IMG/VR virus record: IMGVR_UViG_3300027712_000143
Span: 1-24,500 of that record
Source of the DNA: a virus
Direction: 5' to 3' (one strand)
Length of the DNA: 24,500 nucleotides
The notes beneath the pieces were generated by a model, which ran no database searches, was not told the origin of the DNA, and saw only the letters and a list, made by a program, of their open reading frames with translations. A program made the position numbers and the translations under genes. Below, piece after piece: positions 1 to 21,235 of the stretch. How positions within the stretch are numbered: position 1 is the first letter of the stretch; the number at the start of each line of letters is the position of its first letter.

Positions 1-801
1 CTATTTGCTGGTCAGTGTCAAACATGTTTAGGTATCGACCCTGAGTTAGTTCAAATACGTGGCTACAGTGACCGTGCACCATCCTTTCTTAAGTTCAAGG
101 CTGGCAAATATAGTAAAGCATTATACAAAGACCCTTTGTTTCTTGGTGTAGAAATTGAGTTCGAATCTACTAACACCAATCTAGATGACGACCTTATATT
201 TACTGCCAAGACTTTAGGTAATCATTGCATCTTTAAACGTGACGGTTCTATTCGTAATGGCTTTGAGATTGTATCTACAGCTGCTACATTAGATATTCAC
301 AAAGACGAATGGAAAGCATTCTTTGCTGGTGTCAGGGACAATACTAACTTACATGAACATGACACAGTTGGTATGCATGTCCACGTTAGTCGTAGTCCAT
401 TATCTGTTCTAACTGTAGGTAAGATGACAGAGTTTATGAACAACCCTGACAACAAATCCTATCTAGAAAAAGTTGCTGGTCGTTGGTCAGATAGATTTGC
501 TGGTCAACAAACTCGCTCAATTACGTTTGCATTCCGCAATGAAGGGGGTGGTGAACGTTACAATGCTTTAAACTTACGCAACAAAGAAACTGTTGAGTTT
601 CGTATCTTTGCATCAACTCGTTCTTATGACGAGTTTATAATGCGGTTAGAATTCTGTGAAGCAGTTACACATTATTGTAGCCCATGTCAATCACGAGCTA
701 AGTCACTCAAGGAAGTTCCTACTTGGTATTGGTTCGCTGACTATGTATTCAGTAATGCAAAAGCTTGGCCTCATCTTTCTAAATTCATTAAAGGACTGTA
801 A
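1..801 (+). CDS. Amidoligase (Amidoligase_2 / COOH-NH2 ligase family), 5' end cut off
   Basis: The reading frame is open from the first base, so the gene begins upstream of the window; 266 residues are visible. A CxxC pair (visible residues 6 and 9) looks like the end of an N-terminal zinc-binding region. The amidoligase domain follows: GVEIEFE at 49-55, KRDGSIRNGFEIVS, the GMHVHVS histidine pair (H126, H128), and NLRNKETVEFRIF near the C-terminus. The acidic and histidine residues fit the metal/ATP site of this glutamine-synthetase-fold ligase family, which joins a carboxyl group to an amine. The stop codon is one base before the start of a class II glutamine amidotransferase, and an ATP-grasp ligase follows, so the three probably work in one pathway. 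The substrate is unknown. An in-frame TTG at 136 is not needed as a start. Confidence 0.88.
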   Translation, partial: LFAGQCQTCLGIDPELVQIRGYSDRAPSFLKFKAGKYSKALYKDPLFLGVEIEFESTNTNLDDDLIFTAKTLGNHCIFKRDGSIRNGFEIVSTAATLDIHKDEWKAFFAGVRDNTNLHEHDTVGMHVHVSRSPLSVLTVGKMTEFMNNPDNKSYLEKVAGRWSDRFAGQQTRSITFAFRNEGGGERYNALNLRNKETVEFRIFASTRSYDEFIMRLEFCEAVTHYCSPCQSRAKSLKEVPTWYWFADYVFSNAKAWPHLSKFIKGL

Positions 802-802
802 T

Positions 803-1678
803 ATGTGTATCGCTATTTCTAAACCAGCTGGTTCTATTATCAGCAAAGAAACTTTACAACGTTGTTTCACTGCCAACCCTGATGGTGCTGGCTTCATGTA
901 TGCTACAGGTAGTAAAGTTAAAATCCGCAAAGGCTTCTTTACCTTTGACGAATTCTATAATGCATACAAACCACACGAACATAAAGCGTGTGCTATTCAC
1001 TTCCGTATCAAAACACATGGTGCAGTTGAAGTATCTAACTGTCATCCATTCTATGTTACCAGTGAAGTAGGTTTCATTCATAATGGTATCATTAGTAAAC
1101 ACGGTGGTAACGTTAACAAAAGCGATACACGTGACTTCAATGAGAAAGTATTACGACCTATGGTCAAATCATTTGGCACTACTATCATTCACTCGCCACA
1201 AATTCAACCATTAGTTGAGTCATACATTGGCTTCAGCAAACTTGTATTTATGGACAAAGATAGTAACATGACTATTTACAATGAAGCATCTGGTAACTAC
1301 AATGACAATGTGTGGTACTCTAATCACTCGTGGGAAGAACCAAAACCATATACATATACTGGTGCTAGCTCAGGTTATCCAAAAACAACCTACGTGCCCA
1401 AAAACTATGGCTATGACCTATATGATGACTACAATGACGAACATGTAGGCAAAGATGCACAGTTTAACAAACCATTTAAACACATCAAAGCTGGTGACGT
1501 TGTCAACATTATAACTCATAGCAAATATGGTCTATGTGAAGTAGAAACATTCGATGGTGAATGGGTTAAATATGTTCCTCTTTCTTACTTAGATATTCTA
1601 GAAGATGATACTATTCAAGAAGCTACAGTACCTGCTCTACCTCATTACTCTTATCTTAACCGTTATGATTGGGATTAA
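803..1678 (+). CDS. Class II glutamine amidotransferase (GATase II) domain protein
   Basis: 291 residues. The ATG at 803 is chosen because it puts Cys at position 2, which becomes the N-terminal nucleophile after Met removal, and because AAAGGA lies 7 bases upstream. Visible GATase II marks: MCIAISKPAG, HFRIKTHG (R68, T71-G73), NCHPF (79-83) and FIHNGII (N94, G95). Such domains release ammonia from glutamine for a partner synthase. No synthase domain is fused here, so ammonia would be passed to a partner, most simply the amidoligase or ATP-grasp neighbour. After about residue 165 comes a Tyr/Asn-rich linker and then a short beta-rich stretch (AGDVVNII...) that resembles the opening IGDxxxI of the next two proteins. 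Sequence supports the class firmly; the substrate is unknown. Confidence 0.87.
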   Translation: MCIAISKPAGSIISKETLQRCFTANPDGAGFMYATGSKVKIRKGFFTFDEFYNAYKPHEHKACAIHFRIKTHGAVEVSNCHPFYVTSEVGFIHNGIISKHGGNVNKSDTRDFNEKVLRPMVKSFGTTIIHSPQIQPLVESYIGFSKLVFMDKDSNMTIYNEASGNYNDNVWYSNHSWEEPKPYTYTGASSGYPKTTYVPKNYGYDLYDDYNDEHVGKDAQFNKPFKHIKAGDVVNIITHSKYGLCEVETFDGEWVKYVPLSYLDILEDDTIQEATVPALPHYSYLNRYDWD

Positions 1679-1680
1679 TT

Positions 1681-2004
1681 ATGTATTCTATTGGCGATAA
1701 AATTAAGATTACCTCTACATGGGACTGGATGGAATTTCCATTAGAAGAAGCATATGACAATGCTGACGTACTAACTGTATTAGACATTGATGCAGATGAT
1801 GAGTCTGTTCTTGTTGAAGTAGATTGTTACGACGATGATGGTGATGGATACACTGATACATATTGGGTAAACTTTGGCCATATCACTATGTACAAACCTA
1901 AATTTGATTTTAACTTAACAGCCCATGATTTAAAATATGCAAGTGTAATTAGAAAGATTAAAAGAATGGAACAAGTTCGTAAAGGAAAAGGCTATGCATT
2001 TTAA
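1681..2004 (+). CDS. Small acidic protein, first of two tandem paralogues
   Basis: 107 residues; ATG at 1681, two bases after the amidotransferase stop. No known family recognised. It opens MYSIGDKIKI, has a very acidic middle (DIDADDESVLVEVDCYDDDGDG), and ends VIRKIKRMEQVRKGKGYAF. The start (IGDxhxI) and the end (VIRKhK...GYAF) are shared with the next protein, so the two look like diverged copies. The opening motif and alternation suggest a small beta-barrel (SH3-like) fold, which is a guess. Its last 11 bases overlap the next gene. Its place inside the amidoligase cluster suggests an accessory or substrate role, for example a protein to be modified. Confidence 0.7.
   Translation: MYSIGDKIKITSTWDWMEFPLEEAYDNADVLTVLDIDADDESVLVEVDCYDDDGDGYTDTYWVNFGHITMYKPKFDFNLTAHDLKYASVIRKIKRMEQVRKGKGYAF
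1990..2004 (+). repeat. Gene-junction repeat, copy 1
   Basis: GGCTATGCATTTTAA holds both the GYAF-stop end of one gene and the ATG of the next. It matches the junction at 2276-2290 at 14 of 15 bases, so gene and coupling junction were probably duplicated together. Confidence 0.6.
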
Positions 2005-2290
2005 TATTGGTGATGATGTATATATTAAACAAGGATGGGTGCAAGGCTCCCGTCAATGCACATTTAACTCTGATGAAATGGAACGCTATGTTAATGATGG
2101 AAAAATGTATACTATTACAGACAGTTCTAATTTAGATGACGGAACAATCTATCAACTTGATAATCGCTTCTGGTGGTATCCTGAATGCTTTACAGGTGAC
2201 CAACTTGACACAACCCATCCTAACTGGCTAGTCATTCGCAAAGTAAAAAAATTATCTCAACGCAGAAAGGACCTAGGCTATGCGTTTTAA
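1994..2290 (+). CDS. Small protein, second of two tandem paralogues
   Basis: 98 residues. It starts at the ATG formed within the last codons of its upstream paralogue and ends the same way, with its GYAF-stop codons containing the ATG of the ATP-grasp gene. The N-terminus MHFNIGDDVYIKQGW and C-terminus VIRKVKKLSQRRKDLGYAF match the upstream protein. It is tryptophan-rich in the middle (FWWYPECF). No known family recognised. The purine-rich stretch AAAGGA before its own end serves as the ribosome-binding site for the next gene. Function unknown; the conserved ends suggest that both copies are kept for the same partner. Confidence 0.7.
   Translation: MHFNIGDDVYIKQGWVQGSRQCTFNSDEMERYVNDGKMYTITDSSNLDDGTIYQLDNRFWWYPECFTGDQLDTTHPNWLVIRKVKKLSQRRKDLGYAF
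2276..2290 (+). repeat. Gene-junction repeat, copy 2
   Basis: GGCTATGCGTTTTAA, the same overlapping stop/start junction as at 1990-2004 with one base changed. Here it joins the second paralogue to the ATP-grasp gene. Confidence 0.6.
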
Positions 2291-3071
2291 AGTCTTTCCA
2301 TATAAACTAGGCTCAGCCTCTGGCAAAGCCCTAGCTAATGCTCTACATGTTAGACGTGTTCGTCCTACATATGATGCTAGACGTCGTGATGTTATTATTA
2401 ACTGGGGTAACTCTAGACCGTCTGCTATCTTGCATGCGGAGCATGACCTCAATAAACATAGTGCCATTGCATTAGCTTGTAACAAACTTAAAACGTTTAA
2501 AACATTAAAAGCTGCAGGGTTTCAACACTTACCTTTATGGTGTACAACTCGTTATGAAGCTGACCAACTATTGTATACAAGTTCTAATGGTGGTGAACGT
2601 GAATCTGCAATTTATTGTCGCACAAGCTTGACAGGTCACTCAGGAAGTGGTATCATTATAGCTAAGGGCTCGTATGATTTAGTAGATGCACCGCTATATA
2701 CTGTAGCTACTAAACACAAGTATGAGTTTCGAGTTCATGTATTTAAAGGGAGTGTTATAGATGTTCAACAGAAAAAGAAACGACTGGACTACCAAGGCCC
2801 TAGCACTGGGATACGTAATTTCTCTAATGGCTTTATTTATGCTAGGGCAGATGTTCATATACCAGAGCTTATCAAATCCGCTTCTATTGATGCTGTTAAT
2901 CATCTGGGACTTGATTTTGGGGCTGTTGATATTGGGTATCGGGAGCGAGATAATCGAGCATTTGTTTTCGAAGTCAACACCGCACCAGGACTAGTAGGAA
3001 CTACTCTTGAACTATATGCACAGACCTTCACTAACTATCTAGGAGAACTTAATGCGTTGCGTGGCATGTAA
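2280..3071 (+). CDS. ATP-grasp ligase (RimK-like)
   Basis: 263 residues. ATP-grasp marks in order: NWGNSRP at 41-47, KTFKTLKAAG at 71-80 (lysine of the ATP site), Arg114 and the flexible GHSGSG loop at 119-124, KYEFRVHVFKG at 147-157, QQKKK, GLDFGAVDIGY at 210-220, and FVFEVNTAPGL at 228-238 with the ExN metal ligands E231 and N233. This family activates a carboxylate as acyl phosphate and joins it to an amine or thiol; RimK-like members add amino acids to peptides. Together with the amidoligase and the amidotransferase it makes a three-enzyme amide-bond cluster of the type reported in phages by comparative genomics (Iyer and colleagues, 2009). The substrate is unknown; peptide tagging or cell-wall modification are possibilities. 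Confidence 0.87.
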   Translation: MRFKVFPYKLGSASGKALANALHVRRVRPTYDARRRDVIINWGNSRPSAILHAEHDLNKHSAIALACNKLKTFKTLKAAGFQHLPLWCTTRYEADQLLYTSSNGGERESAIYCRTSLTGHSGSGIIIAKGSYDLVDAPLYTVATKHKYEFRVHVFKGSVIDVQQKKKRLDYQGPSTGIRNFSNGFIYARADVHIPELIKSASIDAVNHLGLDFGAVDIGYRERDNRAFVFEVNTAPGLVGTTLELYAQTFTNYLGELNALRGM

Positions 3072-5511: not shown

Positions 5512-5654
5512 TGGATGACGCATTAGAAATTTTAAATGATATACAAGCTATCTTAGATGACTTAGACTCATTTGATTTAGAATTTAGACTACGTAACTAT
5601 GTAGATTATAAACGACATGAGTTTGAACCTGCTAAAGGAGATTGTGTTGGATGA
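5511..5654 (+). CDS. Small acidic protein (47 aa)
   Basis: An ATG inside the preceding TAATG junction opens a 47-residue frame starting MDDALEILNDIQAILDDLDS and ending at a TGA at 5652-5654. It is acidic and strongly helical, so coiled-coil pairing is possible. Its last codons contain the ribosome-binding site (AAAGGAG, 5634-5640) and TTG start of the polymerase. Both ends being coupled to neighbours is the main evidence. Function unknown. Confidence 0.6.
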   Translation: MDDALEILNDIQAILDDLDSFDLEFRLRNYVDYKRHEFEPAKGDCVG

Positions 5655-6819
5655 ACTTATCATCGACGTTGAAACAACTATCTTTCAAAAAGGAGACCCG
5701 TTCAGTGGTAAAAACACTTTGCAGTATGTGGGAGTTCTTGATTCAAGAAATGCTACCAGCCTTTATGATATTGAATATAATGGGAGTCCTTATCGTAATA
5801 AACTTACTAGCTTGGATGTGGCTTGTAAAAACGTTCTTCTTGTAGGGTTTAACATTAAGTTTGACTTACACTGGCTACGTCGTTATGGTATTGACTTTAG
5901 CTCTTGTAAAGTATGGGACTGTCAGCTTGTACACTTTATACTAACCAACCAACAGTTTCCATACCCTAGCCTCAATGCAGTTGCTATGCACTATGGTCTA
6001 GAACAAAAGCTAGACGTTGTAGCTACAGAGTATTGGGATAACGGTATAGATACTCCTGACGTACCACAAGATGTGTTAGAAGCATATTTAGAACAAGACT
6101 TGCGTCTTACACAACAAGTATATCATAAGCAGAAGGAAGCTGTTGCTGCAGCTCCTGCTGCCCTACAAAACCTTATAGCGTTACACAACATGGACCTTAT
6201 GGTTCTAGAGGAGATAGAAGCTAATGGAATTAAGTTTGATGAAAGCGAGTGTCTTGTCCTTGCTATGGAACTTGAAAGTCAAATCAAAACAATTGATGAA
6301 GACCTCCTTAATTATGTTAATATTGACGGTTTCAACTTTAATTCTGGGGACCACTTATCTAGTCTGTTGTATGGGGGAGTTCTTAATTTCCCTAGGAAAG
6401 AAGTTATCGGAGTATACAAAGGCGGTGCTAGAAAAGGTGAGGAAAAACTAGGTTGGATAGACTACTATCATACATTCCCTCAACTTGTACAGCCACTAAA
6501 AGGTAGTGAGTTAAAGAAAGAAGGCTTCTATGCTACTAATGAACAAACACTTAAATCTCTTAAACCTAGTAAAAGTGCTAAACACCTTATAGAAATGCTA
6601 CTAGAACGTGCTGAATTGGAAAAACGTAGGGGTACATACTACCAAGGTTTACCAAACCTACGTGAAGAACATGACTGGGAAGTAAATACATTACATGGTC
6701 AACTAAACCAATGTGTAGCAAGAACAGGTAGACTATCTAGTTCACGTCCTAATATGCAAAACTTTGACGGGCAAATTAAAAACTTATTCTATACGAGGTA
6801 CTATGATGGGTTACTATAA
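5647..6819 (+). CDS. DNA polymerase family A, N-terminal part (3'-5' exonuclease plus thumb)
   Basis: 390 residues from TTG at 5647, chosen because AAAGGAG ends 6 bases before it; an in-frame ATG at 5617 lies upstream of that site and is less likely. Exonuclease motifs are intact: Exo I LIIDVETT (D7, E9), Exo II VGFNIKFD (N69, D73) and Exo III YLEQD (Y147, D151). The polymerase part follows and contains RTGRLSSSRPNMQNF (about 359-373), conserved just before the palm. The frame stops after NLFYTRYYDGLL, immediately before catalytic motif A, which is carried by the next gene. The two should assemble into one replicative polymerase with proofreading. No DnaJ-like insertion was seen between the exonuclease and polymerase regions. 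Confidence 0.85.
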   Translation: MDELIIDVETTIFQKGDPFSGKNTLQYVGVLDSRNATSLYDIEYNGSPYRNKLTSLDVACKNVLLVGFNIKFDLHWLRRYGIDFSSCKVWDCQLVHFILTNQQFPYPSLNAVAMHYGLEQKLDVVATEYWDNGIDTPDVPQDVLEAYLEQDLRLTQQVYHKQKEAVAAAPAALQNLIALHNMDLMVLEEIEANGIKFDESECLVLAMELESQIKTIDEDLLNYVNIDGFNFNSGDHLSSLLYGGVLNFPRKEVIGVYKGGARKGEEKLGWIDYYHTFPQLVQPLKGSELKKEGFYATNEQTLKSLKPSKSAKHLIEMLLERAELEKRRGTYYQGLPNLREEHDWEVNTLHGQLNQCVARTGRLSSSRPNMQNFDGQIKNLFYTRYYDGLL

Positions 6820-6845
6820 AAACTTAGATATTGAAAGGCAAGAAA

Positions 6846-7568
6846 ATGCTGATACAAGGCGATGCAAATGCACTGGAGTGGAGGGCAGCAGCCTTCCTAA
6901 GCCAGGACATGACAGCACACAAGGAGATTTGGGCAGAAGTAGACCAACATACGGACAATCAACTTCGCTTAGGTTTGCCTTCACGTTTAATAGCAAAAAC
7001 TTTTGTGTTCCGTCTGATTTATGGGGGCTCCGCTTACTCGTATGCCAACGACCCAGACTTTGTATCCGTGAGCCGTTCTGAAAAGTATTGGCAAAACATC
7101 ATTGACCAGTTCTATGAAAAGTATAGTGGTTTACGTAAATGGCATACAAATCTAATGCAAGAAGCTACTACAAAAAGCTGTATAACGTTACCAACAGGAA
7201 GAGTATACTATTATGAGCCAAAACAACAACGAGGAGAAATGGTATGGCCTAGAACAACTATTCTTAATTACCCAGTGCAAGGCTTGGGAGCAGACATCAT
7301 GGCTATTGCCAGGGTTGTATTGCATAATCGTCTAAAGAAATTAAATATACCAGAAGTAAAACTTGTTAACACTGTACACGATTCTATTATTCTAGATGCT
7401 CCTGATGAGCATACAGATATGCTATCAAATCTTATTCTAGATGTATTTGAAGCAGTACCTAAGAACTTTGAAAAACTATTCGGAGTACCATTTAACCTAC
7501 CTATGAAAGCCGAAGTGGAGTTCGGTAAAGATTGGAAAAATATGCAGAAATATGTTGCAACACCTTAA
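6846..7568 (+). CDS. DNA polymerase family A, C-terminal part (palm and fingers)
   Basis: 240 residues from ATG 6846 with AAAGG 7 bases upstream; an in-frame TTG at 6831 lacks a ribosome-binding site. It opens with motif A, MLIQGDANALEWR (catalytic D6). The O-helix motif B follows: SRLIAKTFVFRLIYGG with R47, K51, F55, Y59. F55 corresponds to Phe762 of E. coli Pol I, the type that discriminates against dideoxynucleotides. QGLGADIMAIA and motif C NTVHDSI (H178, D179) follow. All catalytic residues are present, so this is a working half rather than debris. Compared with a continuous family A polymerase, about 35 extra bases holding a stop, a ribosome-binding site and a start separate the halves. 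Confidence 0.85.
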   Translation: MLIQGDANALEWRAAAFLSQDMTAHKEIWAEVDQHTDNQLRLGLPSRLIAKTFVFRLIYGGSAYSYANDPDFVSVSRSEKYWQNIIDQFYEKYSGLRKWHTNLMQEATTKSCITLPTGRVYYYEPKQQRGEMVWPRTTILNYPVQGLGADIMAIARVVLHNRLKKLNIPEVKLVNTVHDSIILDAPDEHTDMLSNLILDVFEAVPKNFEKLFGVPFNLPMKAEVEFGKDWKNMQKYVATP

Positions 7569-8156: not shown

Positions 8157-8851
8157 TGTTAGCCTTACTTGATGGAGATATATTCTGTTATCGAGTAGGG
8201 TTCTCTACTGAAGAAGAAGAAGTTGGTATAGCTAAGTGGCGTGTAGATGAGATGATACAAGATTGTCTAAACGTCACAGAAGCTACATCACATAAAGTCT
8301 ACTTAACAGGTAAAGATAACTTTCGATATACTATTAATAAAACATATAAAGCTAATAGGTCTGACAAACCTAAACCAAAACATCTACAAGATTTACGTAA
8401 CCATCTAGTATCTAAGTGGTCTGCAGAAATTGTAAATGGTATGGAAGCTGATGACGCTATGGCAATCAATCAAACAGACAGTTCTATAATCTGTACAATT
8501 GATAAAGACTTATTACAAGTGCCTGGTAAACATTATAACTTTGTAAAGAAAGAGTTTCAAACTATTACTCCTTGGCAAGGTTTAGTTAAGTTTTATACTC
8601 AGTTTCTTGTTGGTGATAAAGCTGATAACATTATAGGTATAGATGGTATTGGTCCTGTAAAGGCTGAGTCTTACCTTAAAGGTTGTAAGTTTGAGTTTGA
8701 GTTGTTTGATAGAGTTAAGAAGATGTATAACGACGACGAACGTATGCTTATGAATGGTAGATGTTTGTACATGAAACGTACACTAGAAGACGATTGGATT
8801 GACCACTACAATGAACTCAAAAAAGAACTGGACGGAAGGAAGGCTTCGTAG
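8156..8851 (+). CDS. 5'-3' exonuclease (T7 gp6-like, FEN/5' nuclease superfamily)
   Basis: 231 residues. Acidic metal-binding clusters: LLDGD (D6, D8), MEADDA (E97, D99, D100), TIDKDLLQ (D116, D118) and GDKADN (D154, D157). The helix-hairpin-helix GIDGIGPVKA at 161-170 binds duplex DNA. These fit the 5' nuclease family, which removes RNA primers and degrades host DNA to supply nucleotides. The arrangement next to SSB and an endonuclease resembles T7-like phages. The gene starts in the SSB stop codon, and the HNH gene starts inside it. Confidence 0.86.
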   Translation: MLALLDGDIFCYRVGFSTEEEEVGIAKWRVDEMIQDCLNVTEATSHKVYLTGKDNFRYTINKTYKANRSDKPKPKHLQDLRNHLVSKWSAEIVNGMEADDAMAINQTDSSIICTIDKDLLQVPGKHYNFVKKEFQTITPWQGLVKFYTQFLVGDKADNIIGIDGIGPVKAESYLKGCKFEFELFDRVKKMYNDDERMLMNGRCLYMKRTLEDDWIDHYNELKKELDGRKAS

Positions 8852-9191
8852 TTTTATTACATCTACTATACGAGGGGGGTTCCGAAGGTACCCTCCTAAG
8901 TATGAGGTGTTAAAAGAAGCTTTCTGGGGTAAAAAGGTAAACAGTAAGACAGGTAGGATGAGTGCTCACTATACATGTAACTTATGTAAACATGAGTTTC
9001 CTACCAAGGAAGTGCAGGTAGACCACATAGAACCTGTAGTAGACCCTAAGATAGGTTTTGTATCTTGGGATAGCTTTATAGCTAGACTCTTCTGTGATAA
9101 AGAGAATCTACAAGTATTATGTAAACCATGTCATTTAACTAAAACAGCTAATGAAAAGAAAGAGAGAAAGAATGCGTCTACACAATATTAA
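8811..9191 (+). CDS. HNH endonuclease
   Basis: 126 residues from ATG 8811 (41-base overlap with the exonuclease; no good ribosome-binding site, so coupling is likely). A zinc-bound HNH core is visible: YTCNLC (C56, C59), VQVDHIEPVV (D71, H72), LFCDKENLQVLCKPCH (C104, C107, H108) and KT. The N-terminus is basic (RRYPPK). HNH proteins at this place in replication modules may cut host DNA or resolve branched phage DNA, as endonuclease I does in T7; a homing role is also possible, although it is not inserted in another gene. Class firm, role inferred. Confidence 0.82.
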   Translation: MNSKKNWTEGRLRSFITSTIRGGFRRYPPKYEVLKEAFWGKKVNSKTGRMSAHYTCNLCKHEFPTKEVQVDHIEPVVDPKIGFVSWDSFIARLFCDKENLQVLCKPCHLTKTANEKKERKNASTQY

Positions 9192-19784: not shown

Positions 19785-20738
19785 TTATCCCCAGTAACTT
19801 TTCATTAAATCTTGTATACCACCAATACCAGCTACAAGAGAACGTTCTGCATTAGCAGTACTAGCTGCTTGTAATTTTTGTTGTGCAGCATTAGCGTCTT
19901 GTCCTACAGATGGATTTTGCGTAGCACCAGATAGTTGAGCTAATCTACTATATTGATTCTGAAACTGGGTATTAAAATAATCACCAGAAGTAAGAGCCAT
20001 ATTATAGTTACCCATACCAGACATACTTTGTCCTGTTTGAGCAAGTTGTCTTTGTGTACCAGTAAGTGCCTGGTTAAGGCCTTGTTGATAACCAGCTCCA
20101 GAAGTAATAGAACTAGGATTAGCTACAAGTTGATTTAACTGTGCTGCATTAGCTGCTCTGTACTGAGCATAAGGGTCAGCACTGCTTTGAGCTTGACCTG
20201 GAGTTTGTGTATTAAAGCCTTGATAGGCATTATATAAATTACTACCTACTTTAGCAATGTTACCTAATGTCTTAGCACCACTCATAATACTACTCATAGA
20301 GCCAGCACCCTGCTGAACTACTTGACCAGCAACATCTACAGCTGAACCTAAAACATTACCAGAAGCATCATAAGCCATACCACCTAATAACTCTACAGAA
20401 CCATCAGCCACAGATGCTGCATCAATAGCCATACCACTAGCATCATAAACAACTGAAGGAGCTGCATCACTAAATAAGCTACCTGCCCCACCTACACCAC
20501 TTGCACCAACAGCACTACCAATAGCACCTAAAACATTACCCTGAGCTAAAGAGTCTATAGCATTAAAAGCCATAGCTGGCATTTGCCAAGGACCTGGAAT
20601 AAAAGATGCTACTTTTGCAATAGGTTCTATAATATCTACTGCTGTATCAAAAACATCTCCTACAGCAGAAAAAACAGAATCAAAAAAGTTTAATTGGCAA
20701 AAGCCAACAAACCATAGTGGGTTTAAATATTTTAACAT
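19785..20738 (-). CDS. Probable internal virion protein, gp14-like (317 aa)
   Basis: Start ATG with AAAGG 7 bases upstream. The N-terminus is hydrophobic (LNPLWFVGFCQLNFF, then FSAVGDVFDTAVDIIEPIAK), followed by small-residue, membrane-active-looking segments (NVLGAIGSAVGASGVGGAG). The C-terminal half is Gln/Asn/Ala/Gly-rich (AQYRAANAAQLNQLV, GYQQGLNQALTGTQRQLAQTGQSMSGMGNYNMAL). This is typical of gp14-like ejection proteins that form the outer-membrane part of the channel. Overlaps the sulfotransferase stop by seven bases. Confidence 0.6.
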   Translation of the reverse strand: MLKYLNPLWFVGFCQLNFFDSVFSAVGDVFDTAVDIIEPIAKVASFIPGPWQMPAMAFNAIDSLAQGNVLGAIGSAVGASGVGGAGSLFSDAAPSVVYDASGMAIDAASVADGSVELLGGMAYDASGNVLGSAVDVAGQVVQQGAGSMSSIMSGAKTLGNIAKVGSNLYNAYQGFNTQTPGQAQSSADPYAQYRAANAAQLNQLVANPSSITSGAGYQQGLNQALTGTQRQLAQTGQSMSGMGNYNMALTSGDYFNTQFQNQYSRLAQLSGATQNPSVGQDANAAQQKLQAASTANAERSLVAGIGGIQDLMKSYWG

Positions 20739-21235
20739 AAGTTAGCCTTTAGTTCTAGAATAAGTTTTCTAAGGTGCTCTGGATTCATTTTTATTTTATC
20801 TTGTGCTGAATTAACTTGCATTAGTTTAAGTTCATTATGACGTTCTTCATCAAACTCTTTTTGTAAAAGAAACTCATATATAGGTTTAGGGTTATTAAAT
20901 ATGTCTTCCCAATGTACATGCATACCTTTAATAGCATTAAGCATTTCTGTATATTTAGGATTACATAAAGATTCGTCTTGAGAAGACTTTACAATGTCTT
21001 CATAAGGTCTATGTAGTATAACCTTACGAGCAGGATGTTTGTTAACCCACTCTGGAAATCTATATAACCCTGTACAAGATACACCTACAACTCTTTTACT
21101 TTGTATAGCATCTAACTCATTGTAATGCTTAGTCCACATAGGTTCATGTAAACATAAAGTTGTATCTGTAGTAAGCCAGTTGGCTGTCCAAGTAGTTCCT
21201 GACCTGGGTGCAGCTAAAACCATAAACTCAACCAT
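20732..21235 (-). CDS. Minimal sulfotransferase-family protein
   Basis: 167 residues, short for this family (usually well over 200). The N-terminus FMVLAAPRSGTTWTANWL is the phosphosulfate-binding loop (P10-W16) that holds PAPS. KVILHRPYEDIVKSS resembles the RxP(F/Y)xxxxS motif that contacts the 3' phosphate. A likely catalytic His is in LCLHEPMW. It would move sulfate from PAPS to a hydroxyl or amine. Its place between tail and internal virion genes suggests late action on a virion glycan or host surface molecule. It overlaps both neighbours by eight bases or fewer. Family likely, activity unproven. Confidence 0.7.
   Translation of the reverse strand: MVEFMVLAAPRSGTTWTANWLTTDTTLCLHEPMWTKHYNELDAIQSKRVVGVSCTGLYRFPEWVNKHPARKVILHRPYEDIVKSSQDESLCNPKYTEMLNAIKGMHVHWEDIFNNPKPIYEFLLQKEFDEERHNELKLMQVNSAQDKIKMNPEHLRKLILELKANLC

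Follow-up and report, generated by a model that had tools for sequence, protein, structure and literature searches.

A split DNA polymerase has already been published for the OM43 phages MEP401 and MEP402, together with the suggestion of an intron (PMC10580990). In phage T4, gene 39 is split by a homing endonuclease and gene 60 carries a 50-nt bypassed insert, which may guard against cleavage (PMC5009743); the same 2016 review records no known natural occurrence of in-frame stop-hopping, and a 2010 paper described the 39/mobA/60 arrangement as unique to T4 (PMC3014915). Activity as two chains has been reported for gp43 of phage 25 and for the split nrdA of Aeh1 (PMC2988022). A survey of virioplankton PolA (PMC6302109) does not mention the words “split” or “intein”, and the topic of PMC6892783 and PMC7824862 is family B and Pol III splits.

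Here we describe a split family A polymerase in 24,500 nt of viral DNA (positions 1 to 24,500 of IMG/VR record IMGVR_UViG_3300027712_000143, hereafter “the window”). MEP401, MEP402 and their kin (Zobellviridae) share with it the place of the cut and the order of the parts (C-half identity 57%), as well as a polymerase located behind primase and DnaB-type helicase genes, but MEP401 and MEP402 carry a 77–78 aa gene between the halves where the window has only a stub. The T4-like gp43 made of 43A and 43B (phages 25 and 44RR) is also a two-chain phage polymerase, reported to co-purify and to be active (PMC2988022), but is a family B enzyme with a different cut site. In Vibrio phage ICP2 (NC_024791; L016 2953–5046), a family A polymerase is likewise encoded in two ORFs with a cut in the palm, but the cut lies ~20 residues earlier, the ORFs are in the same frame with the first base of the stop 9 nt ahead of the second ATG, and the protein falls with the outgroup in our tree. 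Overall, it is very probable that the window encodes a two-chain polymerase whose split is ancestral, with a stub for a linker, a junction that is a nuclease hot spot, and a plausible origin through a nuclease. With its cut next to the catalytic Asp and a split kept across diverse phages, this replicative polymerase would provide a natural model of enzyme fission and assembly.

Organization of the polymerase locus

A sequence-only reading of the window had proposed a family A polymerase split just before motif A, and this was borne out by the stop codon of the first ORF, the ATG at 6846 (Table 1), and DNA_pol_A matches in both halves (PF00476; 63.3 bits for the N-half and 94.9 bits for the C-half, Pfam gathering cut-off 34.3). 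The N-half ends TRYYDGLL-TAA and the C-half begins MLIQGD in a different frame, with motif A itself unbroken; the window polymerase carries motifs A, B, and C within its DNA_pol_A domain. The N-chain ORF opens with an ATG at 5617, and a TTG at 5647 would be the likelier start, an AGGAG being found at 5636–5640. Conserved residues are found in both halves: D6, E11, R47, K51, F55, Y59, H178, and D179 are invariant in the C-half (33 aligned rows), and in the N-half the TGRLS...PN.QN box shows little or no variation (30 rows). The 3'-5' exonuclease family PF01612 reached 17.8 bits on the N-half, below its 23.6 cut-off, and the exonuclease-like D/E and N-K-F-D positions are conserved in the aligned rows.

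Table 1. Coordinates of the split polymerase and its linker in the window.
Feature	Position	Strand	Content or basis
N-chain of polymerase	5617..6819	+	3'-5' exonuclease-like domain, thumb, first palm part
Third-frame stub MMGYYKNLDIERQENAD, putative start of small linker gene	6803..6853	+	overlaps N-chain tail YDGLL
TAA, N-chain stop codon	6817..6819	+	sequence
Linker, 26 nt, N-chain stop to C-chain ATG	6820..6845	+	sequence
TAG closing the C-chain frame upstream	6825..6827	+	sequence
AAAGG, possible Shine-Dalgarno for C-chain	6834..6838	+	sequence
C-chain of polymerase	6846..7568	+	motif A strand, fingers (motif B), motif C, remaining palm
Motif A catalytic Asp codon, C-chain residue 6	6861..6863	+	sequence, alignment

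Modeled alone, the C-half reached a pLDDT of 95.2 and a pTM of 0.89, with Bst and Taq polymerase I as the closest structures. The N-half model (pLDDT 87.2, structure matches including Klenow, DpoZ, and T7 polymerase) is of low confidence in its last ~40 residues, the part of the palm expected to contact the C-half. When aligned by sequence to Taq, the N-half match ends at residue 586 and the C-half begins at ~605–606, hence the cut falls between these positions, in what is presumably the hairpin turn before motif A. The N-chain would then end at this turn of the palm and the C-chain begin on its own ATG right before the motif A strand; the earlier proposal of two separately initiated chains, with the palm cut just upstream of motif A, is supported. 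These chains most likely assemble non-covalently, the last palm strand of the N-chain and the strand that opens the C-chain probably forming a pair, and the window would require only separate initiation and chain assembly. A split intein was considered and rejected: no intein family was detected in the Pfam scan of either half, and both facing ends are polymerase sequence.

A small gene between the halves

Read in the third frame, the linker and the DGLL tail of the N-half resemble the start of a gene of the sister group (MGYYKNLDIERQE vs. MGYYSEMDIQNQE), in a frame which remains open to 7081 in the window. The best matches to this stub were MGYYSEMDIQNQEDED in L104 (score 55), MGHFKNLDIDRQEELL in L181 (53), and MGYYSEQDIQNQEDED in L028 (51), the next-best among 45,874 distinct start-codon 16-mers from the gathered loci scoring 31. 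In L104, L105, and L028, the matched start is the beginning of a 76-residue linker gene, whole in these loci, which suggests that the window linker is likely the 5' stub of a small gene whose body was deleted, the YDGLL tail being the N-half frame that would run on through this remnant. However, the L181 match belongs to a gene located elsewhere in that genome, not in the linker (8543 onwards, starting MGHFKNLDIDRQE), and aligning the DNA of the window linker to L104, L105, L028, and L107 gave scores of 24–26, no better than shuffles (maxima 32–39), so that this source of the stub is likely but not certain. No match to the window's own linker was found in the viral contigs scanned. The alignment of GLL with IQGD, previously taken as the trace of an insert, is probably a coincidence given the match of the linker and DGLL tail to the small-gene start.

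Members of the small-gene family were identified in 40 of the 71 junctions with a gap of at least 100 nt, MEP401 and MEP402 included. They are acidic proteins of about 60–77 aa with a ..EEAYFYHT..F.. pattern (e.g., L011 2766–2999), without PHROG match for the two members checked, and perhaps act as an accessory factor.

The split across the lineage

Relatives were drawn from a phage collection and from viral contigs, and the removal of duplicates left 135 junctions with both halves. This set is a sample (the family scans gave the best 80 of 581, 426, and 577 relatives), start and gap positions were derived from a profile alignment, and loci missing one half or below 150/100 bits (L001, L049, L066, L376, L016) were left out before counting. 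The comparison with related phage polymerases that the sequence-only reading had called for showed that the cut falls at the same turn in all 135 distinct readable junctions of the sampled relatives, isolates MEP401 and MEP402 among them, and none is fused, the only fused polymerases among the loci being those of four distant phages chosen on purpose (L018, L019, L020, L022). Neither chance nor an assembly error, the alternative first envisaged, accounts for a split that recurs in two isolates and in many samples. The idea of about 35 bases (6817–6851) inserted in an otherwise continuous gene also fails here, as no junction is continuous and the gap length varies between −17 and 3598 nt; the stop, AAAGG, and ATG of the supposed re-initiation cassette are present, but a 35-base insert acting as such a cassette is unsupported.

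A start codon is found at the C-chain start of all 126 junctions with an unbroken motif A (ATG at position 1 in 119, TTG in two, and an ATG or GTG just before it in five). Shine-Dalgarno-like 4-mers precede it in 85/126, vs. 176/1302 internal in-frame ATGs; AAAGG was not included among these 4-mers, so the window is counted with the 41 junctions lacking one. The N-half ends 0 to 5 residues past (S/T)R(Y/F), a loose pattern, in 130/135 junctions, three others having tails of 12–15 residues and two having no match to the pattern. Between these two ends, gap lengths take 60 distinct values and all three frame relations (126 junctions): the halves overlap or abut in 39 junctions and are separated by 2–99 nt in 25, by 100–999 nt in 60, and by more in two, among which MW202796 has seven annotated genes, one of them a cytosine methyltransferase, within 3598 nt. 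The C-half is in a different frame from the N-half in 94 of these junctions and in the same frame but behind stops in the other 32. Two cistrons, a conserved start, a variable linker, and a shared cut can be read directly from these data, which are most simply explained by a second cistron of its own for the C-half.

In a phylogenetic tree, the 122 split rows come together vs. five outgroup rows, and the window groups with L028, L104, and L105 at 99 (quick tree without bootstrap, with 26 open forks and long-branch warnings, rows with an incomplete half and L110 being left out). From these sequence comparisons, the split is ancestral to the lineage, not recent in the window. A scan of genome_contigs matched 89 stretches, none of them a relative. 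L110 has an N-half frame that stops short, at profile position 345.

Nuclease cassettes and a possible origin of the split

An HNH-type nuclease gene is inserted in motif A in 8 of the 135 junctions, one of them retaining a remnant (nine contigs: L043; L062; L081 = L173; L088; L101; L122; L175; L181). The cassette proteins are 142–153 aa long, with a 31-codon remnant in L181, and each of the six examined gave a match to endonuclease families of the PHROGs (phrog_3322, best e-value 9e-33; also endonuclease VII and HNH). No Pfam endonuclease match was obtained for the three members tested, hence the “HNH-type” label relies on the PHROGs and a SIDRIDP..GY..N pattern, and the comparison with PDB sequences gave no meaningful match. 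In the other 127 junctions the linker is free of this nuclease family, and the window, which is one of them, has no homing-type nuclease gene between its halves.

Comparison of alleles illustrates how the cassette sits in the gene. The empty allele of L071 reads ATGTTACTACAAGCAGATGCTAAACAATTAGAGTGG, vs. ATGTTACTACAAGCAGA, the nuclease gene, GAAGGAGGATATAAAGTG, a respelled second ATGTTACTCCAAGCGGATGCAAAACAACTT, a frame break, and CTTGAGTGG in the filled alleles of L088 and L175. The insertion lies inside the Asp codon here, as in relatives of clade A, four codons' length further on in L173, and after the next codon in L101. In each case the cassette rebuilds the C-half start, the nuclease gene being followed by a duplicate ribosome site, an ATG, and about ten codons. 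A remnant of the original start was detected upstream of the cassette by script in seven of the eight junctions, and that of L101 (LVNGDV), not detected by script, was read by eye. Empty, filled, and decayed alleles are all found at the cut within the lineage. A promoter-like site at the left end of the cassette was no more frequent than in shuffles (3 sites in the region vs. 2.7). The contig L001 (IMGVR_UViG_3300009151_002668), near-identical to the window, has as its first base window position 6863, the last base of the Asp codon; this end coincides with the clade A insertion place, perhaps as an assembly break between empty and filled alleles.

Other nuclease types occupy the junction as well, Endonuclease_7 in L104 and HNH_3 in L098, whose cluster includes L329 and L360, with motif A unbroken in all four. 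Three nuclease families use this junction, a hot spot for homing-type nucleases. Relatives of the cassette nuclease were also noted elsewhere in the loci (L043 200–605; also L003, L061, L087, L100, L110, L130) and in 151 phage records, of which two were inspected: in Mycobacterium phage jiawei the nuclease gene is next to a polymerase gene of 651 aa, while in the second record its neighbors are unrelated.

The rebuilding step is visible in these eight junctions, and a nuclease origin is plausible, i.e., the ancestral split would have arisen when a nuclease gene landed at motif A and rebuilt the downstream start, to which we give about an even chance. Somewhat short of that stands a split by simple frameshift and internal initiation, with nucleases arriving later at an already split gene. 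Speaking for it are the 28 junctions with a gap of −17 (e.g., L034), the C-half ATG being made of the codons that end the N-half (SRY, AGR TAT G) and the N-half stop being a TGA overlapping the Asp codon. The same doubt was raised by Edgell et al. for gp43 of phage 25 (PMC2988022), and most junctions (127/135) have no nuclease of the cassette family. However, this class is found mostly among inner rows of the tree and is not basal, though L080 (−17) and L103 (−11) branch early, and the use of the junction by nucleases of three families also argues against this scenario.

Frame breaks beside the catalytic Asp

All eight nuclease junctions have a frame break at most six codons from the catalytic Asp, vs. 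one of the 127 junctions without nuclease (L014). With kinship ignored, a Fisher test gave a p-value of 4e-12; on the tree, the nuclease changes seven times and the break eight times, jointly in seven independent pairs (sign test, median p-value 0.016, range 0.016–0.031). The break reads CTG TAA CTG GAG in L062, CTT TAG CTA GAG in L101, and CTT T CTT GAG in L081, L088, L173, and L175, while L043, L122, and L181 have one A fewer (GCA AAG C) and L014, with no nuclease beside it, one A more. At each of these, an ordinary motif A would result if the peptidyl-tRNA slipped or hopped to a codon that is identical or synonymous; unless recoded, the frame that continues downstream has no motif A Asp. 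These breaks look like recoding sites, CTG TAA CTG included as a candidate stop-hop.

An alternative which we consider possible, while leaning against it, is that the breaks mark dead genes or assembly errors. The contigs are metagenomic, one type of break is a one-base change in an A-run, L014 has its break without adjoining nuclease, and recoding is putative, proposed from a sequence signature. Yet besides the eight-of-eight association, the same break occurs in separate contigs (L081 and L173, which share a junction), no stop was found in the C-half downstream of the break in nine of nine cases, and the nine records searched (L088, L122, L043, L062, L101, L173, L175, L181, and L014), several being fragments, have a single C-half each. 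The C-half dN/dS is 0.11–0.13 for the nuclease-bearing pairs of clades A and B and 0.10–0.14 for three nuclease-free pairs; pairs with L101 gave 0.23 and 0.44, near saturation, and were set aside. Part of this selection signal may be older than the insertions. The best sign that the break is tolerated comes from L181, in which it has outlasted its decayed nuclease. A scan with the −1 pattern returned 21 stretches, whose only lineage members are L043 and contigs of L122 and L181, and a gapped pattern scan for frame breaks revealed no new polymerase locus among the matches listed.

If the breaks are indeed recoded, they would be short natural sites of ribosome slipping or hopping. It is tempting to go further and speculate, tentatively and with somewhat less than even confidence in the whole, that a start-rebuilding homing endonuclease, recoded breaks, and repeated gain and loss of the cassette made and maintain the two-chain polymerase. 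An HNH-type gene would land in an essential polymerase gene, within the codon for the catalytic Asp. Its cassette would supply its own downstream ribosome site and start codon (ATG), along with a respelled version of the initial ~10 codons, and would leave the frame broken no more than six codons from the Asp, a break that would shield the target from cleavage. Translation would then proceed by a −1 slip at A AAG, a hop at CTT-T-CTT, or in-frame stop-hops at CTG TAA CTG and CTT TAG CTA. Chain assembly, recoding in the cassette-bearing relatives, self-protection by the break, and the origin of the split through an earlier cassette are all steps that we infer. The T4 39/mobA/60 arrangement resembles these eight junctions, not the window, in that an essential replication gene is split by an HNH nuclease with a frame-breaking insert downstream; it differs in the gene concerned and in its 50-nt insert, whereas the breaks of the relatives, with recoding putative, consist of one base lost or 1–6 extra at the end of the duplicated start region. 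The scenario above, if true, would make a second natural system beside T4 39/60, and one with natural stop-hop sites. In the literature searched, which covers few subscription journals, we found no description of the cassette, the duplicated start, or the breaks, and we regard the nuclease cassette in motif A, the rebuilt C-chain start, and the nearby frame break as new here.

One chain or two in the window

Joining of the window halves into one chain, by ribosome bypassing or frameshifting over the junction, is very improbable. Fusing YYDGLL to IQGD does give an Asp spacing equal to that of RFVGGYIMECD in ICP2, and a shift is possible on paper in the 38 of 126 junctions whose C-chain frame meets no stop until upstream of the end of the N-chain. 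In the window, however, the C-chain frame is closed by a TAG (6825) downstream of the N-half stop (6817), hence no single frameshift can fuse the halves; moreover, the small-gene stub accounts for the N-half tail, and across the lineage a start codon is conserved over gaps of −17 to 3598 nt. For the −17 class, a frameshift is also possible on paper but not favored, as a fused protein would be missing the final part of the SRY strand. A self-splicing intron joining the halves at the RNA level, as suggested for MEP401/402 in PMC10580990, which also describes introns as common in phage polymerase genes, is scarcely credible: the 12 sources scanned with Rfam, MEP401 and MEP402 included, gave no family at gathering level, with none up to an E-value of 1 in window 6600–7100, and no room for an intron in the 39 of 126 junctions that overlap or abut. 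Two separately initiated chains are thus retained for the window, where the bypassing once offered as an alternative is not needed; recoding may nonetheless act a few codons further on in the relatives with a nuclease cassette.

Other genes of the window

Elsewhere in the window, a gene at 20732–21235 (− strand) starts with a sulfotransferase-like APRSGTTW, recognized by eye and without Pfam match. A small HNH protein (8799–9191) overlaps the end of the 5'-3' exonuclease gene and scores 21.2 bits for a Pfam cut-off of 21.4. Finally, alongside amidotransferase-like and ATP-grasp-like genes, both identified by eye with no Pfam match, the region 1–3071 includes an Amidoligase_2 gene (Pfam e-value 2.5e-6).
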